A stretch of DNA of 48,080 nucleotides from Acidimicrobiales bacterium (GTDB lineage Bacteria; Actinomycetota; Acidimicrobiia; Acidimicrobiales; UBA8592). Position 1 is the stretch's first letter. Each line of letters starts with the position of its first letter. Under the pieces are notes generated by a model, which saw only the letters and a list, made by a program, of their open reading frames with translations, was not told the origin of the DNA and did not search any database. The position numbers and the translations under genes are program-made. Below are positions 37,784 through 47,387 of the stretch, piece after piece. Where the stretch lies: the NCBI GenBank assembly GCA_030740795.1, contig JASLWO010000033.1, forward strand, positions 1 to 48,080. The letters run 5' to 3'.

Positions 37784-37950
37784 GGGAAAAGACTAGTTCC
37801 CGACATTAAGCCATGGGGAAAGTATCATTGAATTCTGACATGTTAAAAGGGCACACGGTTGGTCTGAAAATCATGTCGGGCACTACGGTCAATGTAGGTA
37901 AAGCAACTGAATTAAGTAATTTAAGTAAATGCCAGGAGGCACAGAACGCA

Positions 37951-38772
37951 ATGGCACAAACAATGACGCGGAAAGGTCCAGAACCCATCCGTAAAAGGCC
38001 AAGGCAACTTCCATTTCCTTTAAATCTCTACCAAAGCGCCATTGGAAGAAAATGGGTGATGGCTGTGAGCGGCGTTGTACTGCTCGGTTTCGTAGTTACT
38101 CACATGATCGGGAACCTTCATTTGTACGAAGGTCCGCTAGAAATCCATGAATACGCTGAAACTCTAAGGAATCTGGGAACAGACATTATTCCCAGAACCT
38201 GGCTTCTTTGGGGTGTGCGACTTCTGCTAATTGCGGCTTTCGCTATCCATATCCATTCTGCATATACGTTGAAAGAAATGGGTAGGAAAGCCAATACACG
38301 CTCTAACTACGCTGATGGAAACAAAAAATATGCTTCTTCCCAAGACTTTGTTGCAGCAAACTACGCCAGTCGAACCATGCGCTGGACTGGCCCCATTATT
38401 CTTCTGTACCTTTTCTTCCACTTAGCTGACTTAACGTGGGGTTGGTTCAGCAAAGATTGGCATCTTGGAGATCCATACAACAACGTTGTGGTCTCCATGG
38501 GGAACATAGGTGTTGCCCTCATTTACATTGTCGCTAACGTAGCACTGGCCATACATATCTTTCATGGAACATGGAGCCTGTTCCAAAGTTTGGGAATCAA
38601 TTCCCCAAAGATCAACAAAATACGTAGGCATACCGCTGCCGGCTTAGCTGGACTTATTCTTGTCGGGAATCTGAGCTTTCCAATCGCAGTACAGATTGGT
38701 TTGATAGATCAAGATAACTGTGAAGCACCTTGTGGTCTTAACGCTGTTGAACTTGAGGAGGGAAGAGAATGA
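37951..38772 (+). CDS. sdhC: succinate dehydrogenase cytochrome b subunit (SdhC, b558 type)
   Basis: A 273-residue membrane anchor with five hydrophobic helices and several histidines in helices suited to bind two hemes (e.g. [47 protein letters not shown]). This is the single-subunit b558-type anchor, so no separate sdhD is expected. It passes electrons from succinate to menaquinone. The start is set at ATG 37951, behind AGGAGG; an open frame continues to 37813 but has no ribosome site. The stop overlaps sdhA by 4 bases (ATGA). Confidence 0.9.
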
Positions 38773-40691
38773 TCGGAGAAATCAATTCGCGAAGCCCGGA
38801 AGGTCCGATAGAAGACAAGTGGTCTAGCCATAAGTTCAATATGAAATTGGTGAATCCTGCCAATAAACGAAAGTTTGAAGTCATAGTCGTTGGAACAGGT
38901 CTTGCCGGTGCCTCAGCTGCTGCGACACTTGGCGAGTTGGGTTATAAAGTCAAAGCTTTCACATACCATGACAGTCCGAGAAGAGCTCACAGTATTGCTG
39001 CCCAGGGAGGGATCAATGGTGCGAAGAACTATCAAAACGATGGGGATTCCGTTTATAGGCTCTTCTATGACACGGTTAAAGGCGGAGATTACCGAAGTCG
39101 TGAAGCAAACGTTCACCGACTTGCTGAGGTGTCGCTTAATATCATTGACCAATGCGTCGGGCAAGGCGTACCGTTTGCCCGAGAATACGGTGGGCTTCTT
39201 GACAATAGGTCCTTTGGTGGGGCTCAGGTAAGTAGAACTTTCTACGCTCGTGGGCAAACAGGGCAACAGTTGCTGCTCGGCGCTTATTCAGCCTTAATGC
39301 GTCAGGTCGGTTCCGGTTCAGTGGAATTGCACACTAGAACTGAAATGCTGGATTTGATAGTCCACGATGGAGCTGCGAGGGGGATTGTTGTCAGAGATTT
39401 AATTACTGGCGATGTTCGAAGCCATACAGCTCATGCTGTGGTTCTTGCTACTGGTGGATACGGAAATGTCTACTACCTATCAACCAACGCAATGATGTGT
39501 AACGTCACGGCTGGGTGGAGAGCTCATCGTAGAGGTGCCATGTTCGCTAACCCGTGCTACACACAAATCCATCCAACCTGCATACCTGCCAGTGATGAAT
39601 TCCAATCCAAATTAACGCTGATGTCTGAATCGTTAAGAAATGATGGACGTATTTGGGTCCCTAAGGATCATGACGAAGGTAGGTCAATTTCTGAGATCTC
39701 TGAAGATCAGAGATACTACTATCTTGAAGAAAAGTATCCTTCTTTCGGAAATTTGGTGCCCCGTGACGTAGCTTCAAGAAACGCCAAAACCGTGGTAGAT
39801 GCAGGGCTTGGAGTTGGGCCTCTTAAAAATGGTGTTTACCTTGATTTTGCTGACGCTATTCAACGAGATGGGGAAGATGTTATAAGAGAGCGATACGGAA
39901 ACCTTTTCCAAATGTATGAGCGAATCACTGGTGAAGATCCATATAAAACCCCGATGCGTATCTACCCTGCGACGCATTACACGATGGGAGGTCTGTGGGT
40001 TGATTATGAATTAATGAGTAACCTGCCTGGTTTATTTGTTGTCGGAGAGGCGAACTTCTCTGATCATGGAGCGAACCGCCTTGGAGCTTCCGCTCTCATG
40101 CAAGGTCTTGCAGATGGTTACTTTGTTCTTCCTTACACAATAGGTAATTACCTTGCTCCCCTCTTGGGTGAAAGCACACTTGATGAGAATGATCCCTCTT
40201 GCTCCAATGCAGTTAACGAAGTTGCAGAACGCACGCAAAAGTGGCTTTCCATTAATGGGACACGTTCAGTTGATTGGTTCCATAGAGAGCTTGGAAAATT
40301 AGTTTGGAACTTCATTGGAATGGAACGGGACAAAAACGGACTTGAGAAAGCGCTTACAGAAATACCTTCCCTAAGGGAAGAATTTGAAAAAGATGTCCGC
40401 GTTCTGGGGTCTGCTGATAATTTGAACACTTCTCTTGAGAAGGTCGGACGGGTAGCTGACTTCTTCGAACTCGCTGAATTAAAGGCGCGCGACGCATTAG
40501 AACGCGCTGAATCGTGTGGAGGGCATTTCCGTTCAGAGAGCCAAACCACTGATGGTGAAGCGTTACGAGATGACGAAAATTTCTCCCATGTAGCCGCATG
40601 GGAGTGGGGTGGAACTTCTAGTTCTGCGATACGCCATAAAGAAGAACTGGAATTTGAACATGTTCCACTTACACAACGGTCTTACAAGTAG
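38769..40691 (+). CDS. sdhA: succinate dehydrogenase flavoprotein subunit
   Basis: A 640-residue flavoprotein. The FAD dinucleotide motif is [12 protein letters not shown] (about 40-51); the covalent-flavin histidine is His74 in [15 protein letters not shown]; active-site segments are [22 protein letters not shown] and [25 protein letters not shown] is the late FAD contact. The length and the C-terminal helical domain are normal for the actinobacterial/Bacillus-type SdhA. It oxidises succinate to fumarate. Translation is coupled to sdhC. Confidence 0.95.
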
Positions 40692-40700
40692 GAGGGCATG

Positions 40701-41474
40701 ATGGAAGACACAATGACCCTTACGTTAAAAGTTTGGCGACAAAAAGGACCTATGGAAAATGGGCGGTTTGAAACTTATGAACTTGAACAAATAAGCCCCG
40801 ACATGTCATTCCTCGAAATGTTCGATGTCCTTAACGAAAATCTTATTAATAACGGGGAAGAACCTGTAGAGATAGCTAGTGACTGCCGAGAAGGTATCTG
40901 TGGAACTTGTGGATGCATGATCAACGGAAAAGCACATGGACCTGAGAAAGCAACCGCGACCTGCCAGCTACACATGCGTAAATTTAAAGATGGGGACACG
41001 ATTATCGTTGAGCCGTGGCAAGCGACGTCTTTCCCGGTCATCAAAGACTTGGTAGTTGACCGCTCCCCATTAGATCGGATCATTGAGTCAGGTGGTTTCA
41101 TTACTGTTCCGACTGGATCTGCTCCTGATGCAAACTTGATCCCTGTTCCTAAAGACGCTGCCGACGCTGCTTTTGATGCAGCGGCATGCATCGGTTGTGG
41201 CGCTTGTGTAGCTGCATGCCCTAACTCAGCGGCACAACTTTTCACATCAGCGAAAGTGCAGCATCTTAACCTACTCCCTCAAGGACAAGCCGAACGTTGG
41301 TCTCGAACGGAAGAAATGGTTGAGAAAATGGAAGAATACTTCGGATCCTGCACCAACCATGGTGAATGCCATGAAGCTTGCCCTAAAGAAATTCCTTTAG
41401 ATTTTATTGCATACACAAATAGGGATTACGTGAAATCGAAACGGAAGAACAGAAACCTGCTTGGTCAAGATTAA
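40701..41474 (+). CDS. sdhB: succinate dehydrogenase iron-sulfur subunit
   Basis: A ~257-residue protein with all cluster ligands. The 2Fe-2S set is in [14 protein letters not shown] and TATCQLH; the 4Fe-4S and 3Fe-4S sets are in [12 protein letters not shown] and [13 protein letters not shown]. It carries electrons from SdhA to the heme anchor. The start is chosen at the second of two adjacent ATGs because AGGAGG lies 5 bases before it (2 bases before the first, 40698); a third ATG at 40713 is also possible. It is the last gene of the operon and converges on the hydrolase gene with a 3-base gap. Confidence 0.94.
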
Positions 41475-41477
41475 TAA

Positions 41478-42167
41478 TTAGATCTCATTCAAGAGTGCGA
41501 TCGTTCTCTCCCATGCAAGATTGCTAGCTTCTATGTCATATGTGCCTAATGCATTTTCTTCATTGGCGAATGCATGACCTGTGCCGTCGTATATGTGAAA
41601 AATGACATCTTTATCTAAGGATTGAAGATGATTTTCTAGATTTGTAATAGCTTCGGGAGGGAAAAAATCATCCTGAGCTGCGAAGTGCCCCTCTACCTTT
41701 GCTGAGAGTCCCGACCAATCTGCGGCTCCTTCTTCCAAAGGGGCTCCATAGAATGGAGCTGCTACTCCAACTCTATCTCCTTCTAGGGAAGCGATCATTA
41801 ATGTGAGCATCCCACCCATGCAGAATCCGACAGCTCCTACTTGATTGCTGGAACAAGAATCAATGGAAAGCAAGTAGTCAATAGCTGCAGACATGTCACG
41901 CGCCGCTCGGTCAGGGGGGAGAGAAGTCATAAGTTCGCCGGCTTTATCCATTTCAGTATGTTCAGCAAAGTCGCCATGATAAAGATCGGGGGCTAATGCT
42001 GTAAAGCCTTTATCTGCCAGCCTGTCACAAACTCCTTTGATTTGTGGGACCAACCCCCACCATTCTTGTAGCACAAGCACTCCCGGGCCATTCCCTGAAT
42101 GCGATTCTGATAAGTATCCTGATGCATTGTTTCCATTGGCAGAAAATTCAACCATTCTTCCCGTCAT
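41478..42167 (-). CDS. dienelactone hydrolase family protein
   Basis: A 229-residue alpha/beta hydrolase. The nucleophile is Cys116 in VGFCMGGML; acid Asp166/167 in FAAQDDFFPP; base His198 in GTGHAFAN; and Glu35 in LQEWWGL, the residue that activates the cysteine in dienelactone hydrolases. All four are present. The family opens lactone rings such as dienelactone in chlorocatechol breakdown; many members have unknown natural substrates. Transcribed alone or with the methyltransferase upstream (92-base gap). Confidence 0.9.
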   Translation of the reverse strand: MTGRMVEFSANGNNASGYLSESHSGNGPGVLVLQEWWGLVPQIKGVCDRLADKGFTALAPDLYHGDFAEHTEMDKAGELMTSLPPDRAARDMSAAIDYLLSIDSCSSNQVGAVGFCMGGMLTLMIASLEGDRVGVAAPFYGAPLEEGAADWSGLSAKVEGHFAAQDDFFPPEAITNLENHLQSLDKDVIFHIYDGTGHAFANEENALGTYDIEASNLAWERTIALLNEI

Positions 42168-42259
42168 GTTAGTTCTCCTATTTTTGAAAATATTTCAGAC
42201 TAATCATATGTCTAGTCAAGCGAAGTGGTGGACACAAAGAAATAGCAAGAAAACAGGTT

Positions 42260-42835
42260 TTATTTTTGGCAAACCAGCCACGCTTCATGTCTTCCAGAAT
42301 CTCGCCATGCTTCATCTACATGAATCACTTCCATGGAATGCGCTAATTCGAAGCTTTCTCCTAATTTGAATATTTCTGCTGGTTCTAACAAAAAATTAGA
42401 TGATGGGTGTTCGTGACGTTCAAGATTTTGTTTAGTTGGATGTGCCAATAACAAAATACCTGAATCATTTAAGAAGTTCGGTACTTTTTGTAAAAGGTTC
42501 CTGTCAAGAAATAGCGTGATCAGTGCGATATCCCATTGGCGGTTTGGTGGCAACGAATTGTTTTCAAGGTCCCAATGAATGCATTCAATCTCAACTCCTA
42601 AATTATGTGATGCTTCTGTTGCCTGATTAAGAGCGATAGGGCTGATATCAATCAAGGAAGTTGAGTAACCTTTTTCTGCGTACCAAAGTGCGTTGCGGCC
42701 ATTGCCGCCTGCAATATCGACGCAACTTCCAGAGCTTGGAAGATATTTTTCTGTAGCTGGGAGAAAATCTGAAAACGGGTTTAGTTCCGGGTTCTTTTGG
42801 TATCTGTTATCCCAATGGGTTTGAGAGTCGGTCAT
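42260..42835 (-). CDS. class I SAM-dependent methyltransferase (TehB-like)
   Basis: A 191-residue methyltransferase. SAM motif I is CVDIAGGNGRNALWYAEKG, followed by acidic motif II in TSLIDIS and DLENNSLPPNRQWDIALITLFL as motif IV region. The N-terminus HWDNRYQKNPELNPFSDFLP is typical of TehB/thiopurine-type small-molecule methyltransferases. The start overlaps the P450 stop by 4 bases (ATGA), so the two are coupled and may modify the same compound. Acceptor unknown. Confidence 0.85.
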   Translation of the reverse strand: MTDSQTHWDNRYQKNPELNPFSDFLPATEKYLPSSGSCVDIAGGNGRNALWYAEKGYSTSLIDISPIALNQATEASHNLGVEIECIHWDLENNSLPPNRQWDIALITLFLDRNLLQKVPNFLNDSGILLLAHPTKQNLERHEHPSSNFLLEPAEIFKLGESFELAHSMEVIHVDEAWRDSGRHEAWLVCQK

Positions 42836-44100
42836 CGTGTAGTTACGTTTACCGGTATCGTTTCGTATCCGCGAAGCGTCATCCTGCCTCTTTGCTTTAA
42901 TTCACCTGCTTGTTCAATGTTTTTGAAACGCCTAATTAGCCCTGCGAACATTTCCTGCCCTTCTGTTCTCGCTAAATTCGCTCCTAGGCAATAGTGGATA
43001 CCCGACGCAAAGCTCATGGGTGGTCCTTCATTTCGTTCCACCCGGAATTCATCTGGTTCAGTGAACTTTAAGGGATCCCGATTAGCTGCACCGATTAACG
43101 TAACTACTAGGCTTCCTTTCGGAAGGTCAAATCCCGCAATTTCAGCGTCTTCAAGTGCTGTTCTCCCATCGATCTGAACAGGGCTATCCCATCGGAGCAT
43201 TTCCTCAACAGCTGACTCTACGAGAGTTCCATCGTTCCAAAGGCGCGTCATTTGATCCGGGTAGGCAAATAAAGCCCCTAGACCATTCCCGATAAGGTTT
43301 TGTGTGGTTTCCATTCCTGCTGCGAAAAGGAGAATAATCGTACTCACAACCTCTGCTTCGGAAATCCGATCTCCGCTCTCTTCTACCGCAATTAGCGCTG
43401 ATATCAAATCATCTTGAGGTACTGCTTTCCTTTCGTCGAACAATTGGGTGAAATACTCGCCCATTTCCATGAATGCAGCGGTTGATGCCTTAAGTTCTTC
43501 AAGTGACGGTGCTTGTTCGAGCGAAACGACCCCTGCTGTTACTAATGGTCTGAAGTATTCCCAATCCGAACGGGGAACACCTACTAGTTCTCCGATCACA
43601 TTCACGGGGAGGAGTCCCAGTATCTCCATAGCATCTCCGCCACCATTGTCGGCAAGGTTATCGAGGCAATCTTCTGTGAGTTCCTTTATGCTTTCACGCA
43701 TTGATTCAACTCGTTTCGGGGTGAAGGCCCTACTGACGAGACCTCTAAGTCTTGTATGGTCGGGAGGGTCAAGAAAAAGCATTGCTGGAGAAGAGTCACC
43801 ACTATTTGCGTTGATTTCTTCTCTGTAGGCTTTCACCTCTGGATCTTCTTCTCTAGGAAGAGCTGTACCGCCAGGGCCATCTCGGTCACCTTTACCTAAA
43901 CGGTTATCTCGGAAGATCGTTCGGCAGTCATCATAACGCGACAGGAAAATAGCTCCCGAGGAGCTTTTAAAGATAGGTGATTCATCTCGAAGCCGTTTAT
44001 ACCAGACGGCTGGGTTCGCTATTCCTTCTTCGGTGAGGAAAAGGTTGAGTAGATATTCATCGCCTTTGCTCTGATTTTCTGCCTTGATTTCGTTTGCCAT
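42832..44100 (-). CDS. cytochrome P450
   Basis: A 422-residue soluble P450. The heme ligand is Cys371 in FASGIHYCLGANLAR; the I-helix is LLFAAGMETTQNLIGNG, with the acid replaced by Glu before Thr; the ExxR pair is in EEMLRWDSPVQ; the B/C region has ALPREEDPE. The length and motifs fit the bacterial class (CYP105/107/125-like). A GGAGG site precedes the ATG. Requires a ferredoxin and reductase from elsewhere. Coupled to a methyltransferase downstream. The substrate cannot be read from sequence. Confidence 0.93.
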   Translation of the reverse strand: MANEIKAENQSKGDEYLLNLFLTEEGIANPAVWYKRLRDESPIFKSSSGAIFLSRYDDCRTIFRDNRLGKGDRDGPGGTALPREEDPEVKAYREEINANSGDSSPAMLFLDPPDHTRLRGLVSRAFTPKRVESMRESIKELTEDCLDNLADNGGGDAMEILGLLPVNVIGELVGVPRSDWEYFRPLVTAGVVSLEQAPSLEELKASTAAFMEMGEYFTQLFDERKAVPQDDLISALIAVEESGDRISEAEVVSTIILLFAAGMETTQNLIGNGLGALFAYPDQMTRLWNDGTLVESAVEEMLRWDSPVQIDGRTALEDAEIAGFDLPKGSLVVTLIGAANRDPLKFTEPDEFRVERNEGPPMSFASGIHYCLGANLARTEGQEMFAGLIRRFKNIEQAGELKQRGRMTLRGYETIPVNVTTR

Positions 44101-44240
44101 TTCGCCTCCATTTAAAACGATAGCTAAACCTGCTCATCATCGGTAACTTAATTTCAAACATTCTTTACATTCCGTCGGTTAGCAAAAGAGATACTGATGT
44201 TGTTATATGTTGGAGTGAATCACCTCTATGATTCTCATAA

Positions 44241-45170
44241 ATGAAAATCCGTAATAGACATAACAAAATTCCAGCTTCAATACAACACATTATGCGTGGG
44301 GTTTTCATGGGAGTTGCGGATGTGGTCCCTGGGGTTTCCGGTGGAACTATTGCTTTATTATTGGGTATTTATGAACGTTTGATCAGGAATGTTCATGACT
44401 GTAGCGATGCTTGTCTTTCGTTTTTAAGGAAAGATTTTAAAGAGTCTAAACGGGCTTTCTCTAAGATTGAATGGAGGTTTCTAGCTCCTTTGTTCATGGG
44501 TATCTTCGTTTCTTTCGGGATGCTTGCCCAAGTTATTGAAAGGCTTTTGGAAGACTATCCGCGATCAATGGCTGGTTTTTTCTTTGGACTCGTGCTCGCT
44601 TCTATCGTTGCCGCAATTTCAATGATAGAGATTTGGAAATTTAACTACTTTCTTTGGATACCAGTCACGACTGTAGTTGCGTTTTTGTTACTCGGTCTGC
44701 GCGCTGGCCCTATAGAAGAACCTAGTCTTCTAGTTTTCTTTATCTCTGGGGCGATTGCTATTTGTGCAATGGTTCTTCCTGGAGTTTCTGGGTCTTTCCT
44801 GCTGCTAATGATTGGAATGTATGGTTCCTTGATTGACACTATTAATAACCGTTACATGCTTGAGCTTATGGTCTTTGGAGCGGGTTCGATTTTGTCATTG
44901 GGTTTATCTGTTCGGGTGCTTAACTGGCTACTGGCAAGGTTCAGAGATCTTCTTCTTGCTTTCCTTATCGGTTTGATGATTGGGAGCCTTCGGGTTATTT
45001 GGCCATGGCCAAATGGTGTTGGCGTAGTCAGTGAAAATGAAAATGAAATAATTGAGGGGTCTATTCTGGCTTGGCCTGATTCGTTCGTTGATTTCCTCTG
45101 GCCAACTGTTTTTGGAATCACCGGATTTGTGATCGTAATCGGTATTTGGAATTTGGAACGGCGTAAATAA
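44241..45170 (+). CDS. DUF368 membrane protein (PopT-type polyprenyl-phosphate transporter)
   Basis: A 309-residue protein with about eight helices. The family signature MRGVFMGVADVVPGVSGGTIALLLGIYERLI is at its N-terminus and is repeated in inverted form later as MVLPGVSGSFLLLMIGMYGSL. DUF368 proteins have been shown to recycle undecaprenyl phosphate across the membrane (PopT). No clear ribosome site precedes the ATG. Its stop overlaps the next gene's start by 1 base, tying it to a lipid kinase and an SCP2-like protein. Confidence 0.88.
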   Translation: MKIRNRHNKIPASIQHIMRGVFMGVADVVPGVSGGTIALLLGIYERLIRNVHDCSDACLSFLRKDFKESKRAFSKIEWRFLAPLFMGIFVSFGMLAQVIERLLEDYPRSMAGFFFGLVLASIVAAISMIEIWKFNYFLWIPVTTVVAFLLLGLRAGPIEEPSLLVFFISGAIAICAMVLPGVSGSFLLLMIGMYGSLIDTINNRYMLELMVFGAGSILSLGLSVRVLNWLLARFRDLLLAFLIGLMIGSLRVIWPWPNGVGVVSENENEIIEGSILAWPDSFVDFLWPTVFGITGFVIVIGIWNLERRK

Positions 45171-46042
45171 TGGTTCACCTTTTGATCAATGCCTTTGCTA
45201 GGAAAGGCAAAGGGCATGAAAAAACTGAGATTATTCTCAAGAGGTTCAAGGATCTGGGGGTAGAAATTTCCTTAGTTGAAGGAGAAACACTTACGGAGAT
45301 TGGAAGAAACCTTAGAAACTTGATTGATGATGGTTTGGAACGATTAGTAGTCGCTGGTGGAGATGGAATAGTTCATTACGCTATTCAAGCTGTTGCCCGA
45401 TCTGAAACGATTCTGGGAATAATACCTATTGGGACCGGAAATGATTTTTGTAGAGCTTTGGGATACCCAACTGAAATAGAATCAGCAGTAGATGCTGCTC
45501 TTGGAGAGGGGCATTTGACTGATTTGCTTCGTGTAGATGGACGTTGGGTTGCATCGGTTGTAACTTTTGGTTTCTCTGGGGATGTCAATACAAAAGCAGA
45601 ATCCATGCGGTGGCCTAATGGGCCTAGCCGCTATACGTTAGCGACTCTTGCGGTTCTTCCTTCTTTGCGAAGCCGTAATATCATTTTTGAAATCGACGGT
45701 GTTCGTCATGAATTAGATTTATGCCTTTCTAATATCGCCAATACGAGCGACTTCGGAGGTGGGATGAAAATCTCTCCTTCCGCAAACCCATTTGATGGGA
45801 AAGCTAATATGACCTTTGTTTCTAGAATTAGTCGAATAGAGTTACTGCGTTTTTTCCGAAGGGTTTTTGATGGTTCTCACATGGATCATCCGAAAGTTAT
45901 AGGTATGGAAGGCAAACGCATTCAAATACTTTCTAATGATCTGGATTTGTGGGCAGATGGTGAATTTATAGGCTCAACTCCTGCAGTAGTTGAATTAATT
46001 CCAAAGGCTATTCGCCTTGCTGGCTCTAAAGGTAATCTTTAA
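45170..46042 (+). CDS. diacylglycerol-kinase-like lipid kinase
   Basis: A 290-residue lipid kinase of the DagK/YegS/BmrU family. ATP-binding motif GGDGIVHYAIQAV (63-75) and PIGTGNDFCRALGYP (86-100) are present. The C-terminal beta-sandwich has NTSDFGGGMKISPSANPFDGK and LDLWADGEFIGSTPAVVEL, typical of soluble DgkB-like enzymes. It phosphorylates diacylglycerol or another lipid alcohol. Its start overlaps the DUF368 stop (TAATG). Confidence 0.9.
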   Translation: MVHLLINAFARKGKGHEKTEIILKRFKDLGVEISLVEGETLTEIGRNLRNLIDDGLERLVVAGGDGIVHYAIQAVARSETILGIIPIGTGNDFCRALGYPTEIESAVDAALGEGHLTDLLRVDGRWVASVVTFGFSGDVNTKAESMRWPNGPSRYTLATLAVLPSLRSRNIIFEIDGVRHELDLCLSNIANTSDFGGGMKISPSANPFDGKANMTFVSRISRIELLRFFRRVFDGSHMDHPKVIGMEGKRIQILSNDLDLWADGEFIGSTPAVVELIPKAIRLAGSKGNL

Positions 46043-46044
46043 TC

Positions 46045-46377
46045 ATGGAAATCTCGGGTGATGATTGGGTTATTGAATTGCAAAAAAACATTGGATCTAA
46101 CCTCTCTCCAAAACCTGGAGTTAATTTCACGACTCAATACGTTATTTTTGATGAATCTGAGGGCAACCAAGAATTCTTTTTTCAATTAGGCGGAAAGGAA
46201 GTGCTCGTTTCGCAGGGAAGGTCAGATTCTCCTGATGCCACGTTTTCACTTGATCGTTCAGTTGCTGAATCTATTCGCTTGAAAGAGTTAACTACTGAGG
46301 AAGCTTTTCTAAAGGGTCTTCTTCTATTTGAGGGAGATACTAGAAAACTTATTGATATTTTTTCTGAAATTGTGTAA
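46045..46377 (+). CDS. SCP2-like sterol/lipid-binding domain protein
   Basis: A 110-residue protein with an SCP2-like pattern: VIFDESEGNQEFFFQLGGKEVLVSQGRSDSPDATFSLD, then an alpha segment with LTTEEAFLKGLLLFEGDTRKLID, where the GLLLFEGD part parallels the GKLKVEGD motif of SCP2 domains. It is likely to bind a lipid or acyl-CoA in a hydrophobic tunnel. It lies 2 bases behind the lipid kinase and ends 20 bases from malate dehydrogenase. The family assignment is by pattern. Confidence 0.72.
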   Translation: MEISGDDWVIELQKNIGSNLSPKPGVNFTTQYVIFDESEGNQEFFFQLGGKEVLVSQGRSDSPDATFSLDRSVAESIRLKELTTEEAFLKGLLLFEGDTRKLIDIFSEIV

Positions 46378-46397
46378 GTTCCGGTGATCTCTGTTGA

Positions 46398-47387
46398 TTA
46401 AATTAGACCCAATTCGGAGACTGTTTCTCTTTCCGTAACCAATTCCGCTGATGAAACGTCTATTCTCCCTCGGCTGAAATCGGCAAGTTCAAGGTTTTGA
46501 ACAATGGAGTAGTCACCATCAACGCAAGTTACTGGGAATGATGAAATGATTCCTTCAGGAATTCCATAGCTTCCATCTGAAGGAACAGCCATTGAAACCC
46601 AGTCACCTTCCAGGGTGCCGAGTTCCCAATCTCTGATGTGGTCTATAGCGGCATTGGCTGCAGAAGCAGCAGAAGAAGCTCCTCTTGCTTTGATTATCGC
46701 AGCTCCTCTTTGTTGGACGGTCGGAATGAAATCTTTTTCTAACCAAGTTTGGTCATTTATTGTTTCAGCTACTGAGATTCCATTTACTTCGCAATTGAAA
46801 AGATCTGGGTATTGAGTGGCGGAATGGTTGCCCCAGATAGTCATTTTCTTAACTGAAGAAACAGGAACTCCGAGTTTAGAAGCGACTTGGCTTTTGGCCC
46901 TGTTATGGTCAAGTCGAGTCATGGCTGTAAATTGTCGGGGATTCAGACCTTTAGCTGCTGATTGAGCGATTAACGCATTTGTATTGGCTGGATTTCCGAC
47001 TACGAGGACTTTAATATTGGGATTTGCGTTTTCTGCCATTGCTTGGCCTTGAGGGCCGAAAATGCCACCGTTTGCTTCAAGGAGATCCGCTCTTTCCATT
47101 CCATCTTTTCGAGGCATCGCTCCGACAAGAAGCGCGTAGTCGCTTTCGGTAAATGCGACGTTGGCATCATCTGTTTTAATGACGTTTTGAAGAAGAGGGA
47201 AAGCGCAGTCGTCAAGTTCCATATGTACGCCATCCAACGCGCCTAAGGCGGGTGTGATTTCTAATAACCTAAGGATGACCGGTTGGTCAGCTCCAAGCAT
47301 TTGTCCGCTTGCAATTCGAAATAGTAAGGCGTATCCAATCTGACCTGCAGCGCCTGTTACGGTCACATTAACCGGTTTTTTACTCAT
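46398..47387 (-). CDS. mdh: malate dehydrogenase
   Basis: A 329-residue NAD-dependent malate dehydrogenase. NAD loop [19 protein letters not shown] (about 10-28), substrate arginines in [15 protein letters not shown] and [18 protein letters not shown], catalytic His in [12 protein letters not shown]. This is the long, cytosolic-type MDH of actinobacteria. It oxidises malate to oxaloacetate, next to sdhCAB in the cycle but 5 kb away. AGGAGG precedes the ATG at good spacing. Confidence 0.95.

Follow-up and report, generated by a model that had tools for sequence, protein, structure and literature searches.

We propose that three adjoining genes of an Acidimicrobiales bacterium, located on contig JASLWO010000033.1 within the window (the whole stretch of DNA analyzed, 48,080 nucleotides), most likely specify a co-expressed undecaprenyl phosphate (C55-P) flippase, a diacylglycerol (DAG) kinase and an SCP2 lipid-binding protein, that is, known parts in a lineage-specific arrangement. 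We favor, with reasonable though far from full confidence, the view that this is a family-specific row of three known parts, which can be explained without a single polyprenol pathway common to them. The arrangement is read directly from the DNA; co-expression and all three activities are inferred. The genes and the relevant parts of their surroundings are as follows.

37813–41474, + strand: succinate dehydrogenase genes, encoding a cytochrome b-type subunit (Sdh_cyt), SdhA (FAD_binding_2 with Succ_DH_flav_C) and SdhB (Fer2_3 with Fer4), all by Pfam; upstream part of the conserved block, given as context
44241–45170, + strand: predicted PopT/DUF368 polyprenyl-phosphate translocase, 309 aa (PF04018 and NCBIfam matches)
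45170–46042, + strand: predicted soluble lipid kinase of the YegS/Rv2252/BmrU family, DAG-kinase-like (PRK11914), 290 aa (DAGK_cat, YegS_C)
46045–46377, + strand: putative small single-domain SCP2-like lipid-binding protein, 110 aa (PF02036, SCP2 fold of the model)
46398–47387, − strand: malate dehydrogenase (MDH) homologue, convergent end of the conserved block and outside the trio (Ldh_1_N, Ldh_1_C)

The open reading frames and the junction sequence confirm the packing described in an earlier note on this DNA, namely a one-base overlap of PopT and the kinase gene and a two-base gap before the SCP2 gene, all on the same strand. Specifically, the PopT/kinase junction reads TAATG, in which the TAA of PopT and the ATG of the kinase gene have base 45170 in common, and the kinase TAA is separated by two bases from the ATG of the SCP2 gene. 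The identities given there (a DUF368 transporter, a lipid kinase and an SCP2-like protein) were likewise borne out by Pfam. Prediction gave 2 promoter sites where shuffled sequences give 3.9, and 4 terminator sites where they give 2.8, which speaks neither for nor against a transcript. Divergent from PopT, on the − strand at 42260–44100, are a cytochrome P450 gene and a small methyltransferase gene that overlap by 4 bases. The P450 gene adjoins PopT in 13/13 members of the genus and is also present on the contig of G144 that bears a piece of PopT; it was not found at the PopT locus of G148.

The PopT protein matches PF04018 over positions 1–243 of 246 (E=2e-75, 254 bits against a cut-off of 26), a full-length domain above the curated cut-off, and it is the only PF04018 match in the window genome. 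Its scores against the NCBIfam polyprenyl-phosphate transporter models NF052564 (1.5e-68, 231.4 bits) and NF052563 (4.5e-33, 115 bits) both lie below the 400-bit equivalog cut-off, and hence we treat it as a member of the DUF368 family and not as a certified equivalog. DUF368 proteins are candidate C55-P translocases according to excerpts of PMC9876793. The window protein is like the known PopT/DUF368 translocases in its full-length PF04018 match but differs in missing the NCBIfam PopT cut-offs and in having a lipid-kinase gene overlap its own.

The kinase has two Pfam matches, both over the cut-off, to DAGK_cat (1.7e-22, 79.8 bits) and YegS_C (2e-35, 122.3 bits); these, PF00781 and PF19279, are its only ones, and the PF01219 domain is lacking. 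Although it falls short of the curated cut-off of every NCBIfam model, the best of the 12 models listed is PRK11914, a diacylglycerol kinase (4.9e-58, 196.7 bits, cut-off 302), which presumably takes in Rv2252, and the score against TIGR00147 (YegS/Rv2252/BmrU) is narrowly too low (117.3 bits, cut-off 118.65). The closest solved structure is that of DgkB (2qv7, 8.8e-25). Six kinases of the genus all have D65, D92, D209 and E265, which align with D, D, D and E in DgkB 2qv7, as do the equally invariant motifs GGDG, GTGND, DG and DGE, and we take these to be the nucleotide-binding and catalytic residues; the first motif continues as GGDGI or GGDGM in the genus versus GGDGT in DgkB 2qv7. The predicted structure of the kinase (mean pLDDT 59) was left out of the fold comparison. 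With the soluble DAG kinases Rv2252, DgkB and YegS the window kinase shares both domains, whereas it differs from them in adjoining PopT and in scoring under the equivalog cut-offs. Kinases of other families that are unlinked to PopT also match PRK11914 (3.6e-62 in G006, 1.1e-62 in G121), and on the simplest reading of the sequences the trio kinase would be the order's DAG-kinase-like gene at a new location. Rv2252 is cited in an excerpt of PMC3229680 as a DAG kinase that feeds phosphatidylinositol synthesis, while an excerpt of PMC12280919 describes the lipid substrate of a Bacteroides PF00781 member, a relative of DgkB, as still undetermined. Substrates within PF00781 are thus not safely predicted and that of the window kinase is not certain.

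The SCP2 protein has the weakest Pfam match of the trio (PF02036, 3.1e-6, 27.9 bits, over the cut-off of 21.3). Its AlphaFold model, with a mean pLDDT of 74, finds its matches among solved SCP2 structures, the best being 2nbm (E=2.6e-7), and SCP2 structures stand at the top of its 45 PDB matches at E<=0.001. It is the most divergent product of the trio, with 41–58% identity among the named genus loci versus 59–77% for PopT and the kinase. Excerpts of PMC6747719 and PMC9499169 report that the SCP2 domain of UbiJ binds ubiquinone intermediates, and an excerpt of PMC6747719 reports that PA3911, an SCP2-domain protein of Pseudomonas, binds phosphatidic acid; by analogy, either precedent could apply to the ligand here. 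The protein resembles the PF02036 lipid binders UbiJ and UbiT in family match and fold but differs in being small and single-domain and in lying beside PopT, Fpg and MDH and not with quinone-synthesis genes.

The earlier note called for conservation of the trio, and this held inside one family only. PopT is present in 15 of the 20 genomes of the window's family, and all 15 carry the order PopT, kinase, SCP2, so the row is no coincidence of one genome; the five without PopT are 62–74% complete, and in G144 PopT is split in two pieces at contig ends. In 13/13 members of the genus, a potential start codon of the kinase gene shares 1 or 4 bases with the PopT stop, whereas the sister genera have gaps of ~46 bases (G148) and 0.7–1 kb (G144), which indicates that the tight coupling arose within the genus, where overlap and gene order are kept down to 52–53% PopT identity. 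A DAGK_cat search of 13 genus genomes detected the trio kinase in the nine with PopT and not in the four without it (G156, G158, G160 and G162), which is what absence of the entire locus from these four would produce. Searching the genome contigs for the kinase gave 33 loci, of which 8 (L157–L164) have the trio; PopT was not found by tblastn at the other 25, several of which are short contigs.

Outside the family the same comparison had a different outcome. PopT occurs in 57 of 148 genomes of the order, 52 of them outside the window family, and the neighbors of 45 of these 52 loci were mapped with profiles built here, some of the loci being cut by contig ends. None of the 45 has the kinase near PopT on either strand, and no profile match to a kinase or a relic of one was found between PopT and SCP2. 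In contrast to the kinase, SCP2 lies downstream of PopT on the same strand at 26 loci (within 1.5 kb at 15), with none at the other 19; Fpg is found downstream on the same strand at 14, MDH at 20 and SdhA at 20. Pfam confirmed the Fpg and SDH identities on examples, and 7 of the 8 SCP2 proteins scanned from other families exceed the PF02036 cut-off (L130 is under it, at 15.7 bits), as do the SCP2 proteins from G148 and from L158, a member of the genus. The order in G148 and G144, PopT-kinase-SCP2-Fpg-MDH, is this older row plus the kinase. Ten ORFs sampled between PopT and SCP2 in other families comprised one NUDIX, two that exceed the cut-off of DUF7064 or DUF7065, three with DUF7065 matches below the cut-off and four without a match; in some other families antisense DUF7064/DUF7065 genes occupy this position (L143 9683–10618; L113 8384–9784).

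The link between SCP2 and these surroundings extends to genomes that have no PopT. SCP2-like proteins are near-universal in the order (a profile of the block SCP2 proteins matches in 147/148 genomes), and in 20/20 PopT-less genomes, sampled out of 91 from the better SCP2 matches and not at random, the sequence retrieved around the SCP2 gene also contains Fpg or an MDH homologue, less tightly in L262 (Fpg ~5.7 kb away) and with a weak MDH match (1e-14) in L268. SCP2 is therefore old local synteny, tied to the block rather than to PopT. Judged from these gene orders, the most likely history is that the kinase gene came in between PopT and SCP2 within the window family, and an insertion in the family's ancestor would be the parsimonious reading of the distribution. 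The SdhA-SdhB-PopT-SCP2-Fpg-MDH block can be followed in several families (window 37813–47387; L113, L122, L127, L131, L134 and L147), so that the genes for a predicted C55-P flippase and SCP2 stay near those for succinate and malate dehydrogenase. In G006 the kinase and PopT are on the same contig, 0.35 Mb from each other. The 63 neighbor ORFs of 19 unlinked other-family kinases (chosen by a crude longest-ORF rule, so that some are probably not genes) gave no recurring lipid function among the 25 families listed, the commonest domains being CCG and Fe-S (4/63 ORFs).

Across the order, PopT and the kinase (called present at E<1e-40 against the window kinase) tend to occur in the same genomes. 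PopT is found in 23/27 kinase genomes versus 34/121 others (Fisher p=5e-8) and, by family, in 11/13 with the kinase versus 12/48 others (p=1.5e-4). Shared ancestry can explain this association. In an independent-pairs test on an MDH tree of 93/148 genomes, from which the PopT genomes G011, G079, G122 and G130 are missing for want of a usable MDH, 10 supported pairs differing in the kinase showed PopT differing the same way in 1.1, the opposite way in 0.3 and not at all in 8.5 (averages), and 6 pairs differing in PopT gave corresponding averages for the kinase of 1.5, 0.2 and 4.3.

A second PopT-kinase pair exists beyond the order. Of 246 genomes from the phylum, 41 have PopT, and 33 of these lie outside Acidimicrobiales. 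Among 54 loci (these 33 and 21 from the family of G255, many covered with only 1.5 kb of flank per side), a kinase was seen next to PopT in two genomes of one genus, G255 and G415. In both, the gene that comes after PopT on its strand encodes a different PF00781 lipid kinase (L207 1474–3332 and L281 1474–3278). The G255 kinase has PF00781 and YegS_C and fits PRK13057 best (9.5e-40; PRK11914 9e-19), so the pairing looks independent. One such event among these loci is suggestive of a functional link but not proof of it.

Based on these data we put forward the following scheme. PopT would return C55-P to the inner leaflet, as expected of its family; the kinase would use ATP to phosphorylate DAG to phosphatidic acid, bringing DAG back into phospholipid synthesis, as its subfamily suggests; and the SCP2 protein would bind some lipid, in keeping with its fold. 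PopT and SCP2 would already have been near neighbors in the older block before the kinase gene became inserted between them; within the genus the kinase gene would then have come to overlap PopT. Given this overlap the genes are probably co-transcribed, with PopT and the kinase translationally coupled. Against this scheme, the kept overlap and the independent pair in another genus suggest that co-expression of PopT with a lipid kinase may be favored; the order-wide co-occurrence, for which shared ancestry can account, and the missed NCBIfam cut-offs count on the same side. Overlap and second pair also weigh against neighborhood drift, in which the trio would have no functional unity and the overlap would reflect genome streamlining only: order and overlap persist in 13/13 genus genomes over considerable PopT divergence. 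Drift would agree with the restriction of the trio to one family, with the small genus genomes (1.2–2.1 Mb, partly through incompleteness) and with a block among whose other members Fpg (DNA repair), SDH and MDH have no obvious function in common with PopT, yet on balance we regard it as unlikely. Less likely again is a variant centered on phosphatidic acid, in which the kinase converts DAG to phosphatidic acid, one of these two lipids is bound or presented by the SCP2 protein, and PopT is only a co-expressed envelope gene. The PA3911 precedent and the position of the kinase and SCP2 genes, which abut in the window and are consecutive in 15/15 trio genomes, fit this idea, but the block SCP2 occurs without the kinase (26/45 other-family PopT loci versus 0) and is the gene of the trio that has diverged most.

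The pathway suggested in the earlier note, in which PopT returns C55-P, the kinase makes C55-P from undecaprenol and the SCP2 protein shuttles a polyprenyl lipid, found no support here, and we consider it very improbable. DgkA/UdpK (PF01219) is a small membrane protein of a family unrelated to that of the window kinase, with only the reaction proposed in that note in common. PF01219 was found in 1/21 genomes searched and in 0/13 of the genus, the window genome included, so that another undecaprenol kinase is conceivable; the need for one is not implied, and the absence could also mean that undecaprenol is unused. The tight PopT-kinase coupling, the polyprenyl-handling SCP2 domain of UbiJ and the presence in the window genome of UppP (along with one DedA-domain protein), which makes a C55-P cycle plausible, are in its favor. 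However, the kinase is unlinked to PopT in 45/45 other-family loci and belongs to a DAG-kinase-like subfamily, SCP2 is tied to the block even without PopT, and the cargo of PopT is already phosphorylated, so that its reaction requires no kinase; nothing computed points to undecaprenol as the substrate. Two points weaken the polyprenyl-carrier reading: at this position the kinase is specific to one lineage, and SCP2 owes its place to inherited synteny. The statement of the earlier note that no such pathway has been described stands, in that no open-licence paper joining DUF368 and diacylglycerol kinase was found; the excerpts of PMC12826051 and PMC7864038 name no undecaprenol kinase. By analogy with UbiJ, proposed to hold the isoprenoid tail of ubiquinone intermediates outside the membrane, one could also imagine that, without DgkA, a soluble PF00781 kinase translationally coupled to PopT has taken on the phosphorylation of a polyprenol, or of a different lipid alcohol from the carrier cycle, while the SCP2 protein holds the isoprenoid tail outside the membrane, a long shot in our estimation.

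If the kinase did act on a polyprenol, this would reveal how the undecaprenyl phosphate pool is replenished in actinobacteria that lack DgkA/UdpK. On the present evidence, for the family-specific row that we favor, the essence is that a compact and suggestive operon can arise by one gene entering an older syntenic block, and thus close spacing of genes is not by itself a reason to infer a pathway.

Further DAGK_cat-like proteins came to light. Two with weak matches and GGDGTN motifs (L194 3758–4780 and L195 3565–4650) have no NCBIfam match at E<=0.001 and are possibly NAD-kinase-like. The second strong DAGK_cat protein of the window genome (L193 1486–2487, contig C39 of G000) belongs to another subfamily, with PRK13057 as its best model, and has close copies in G076 and G026.
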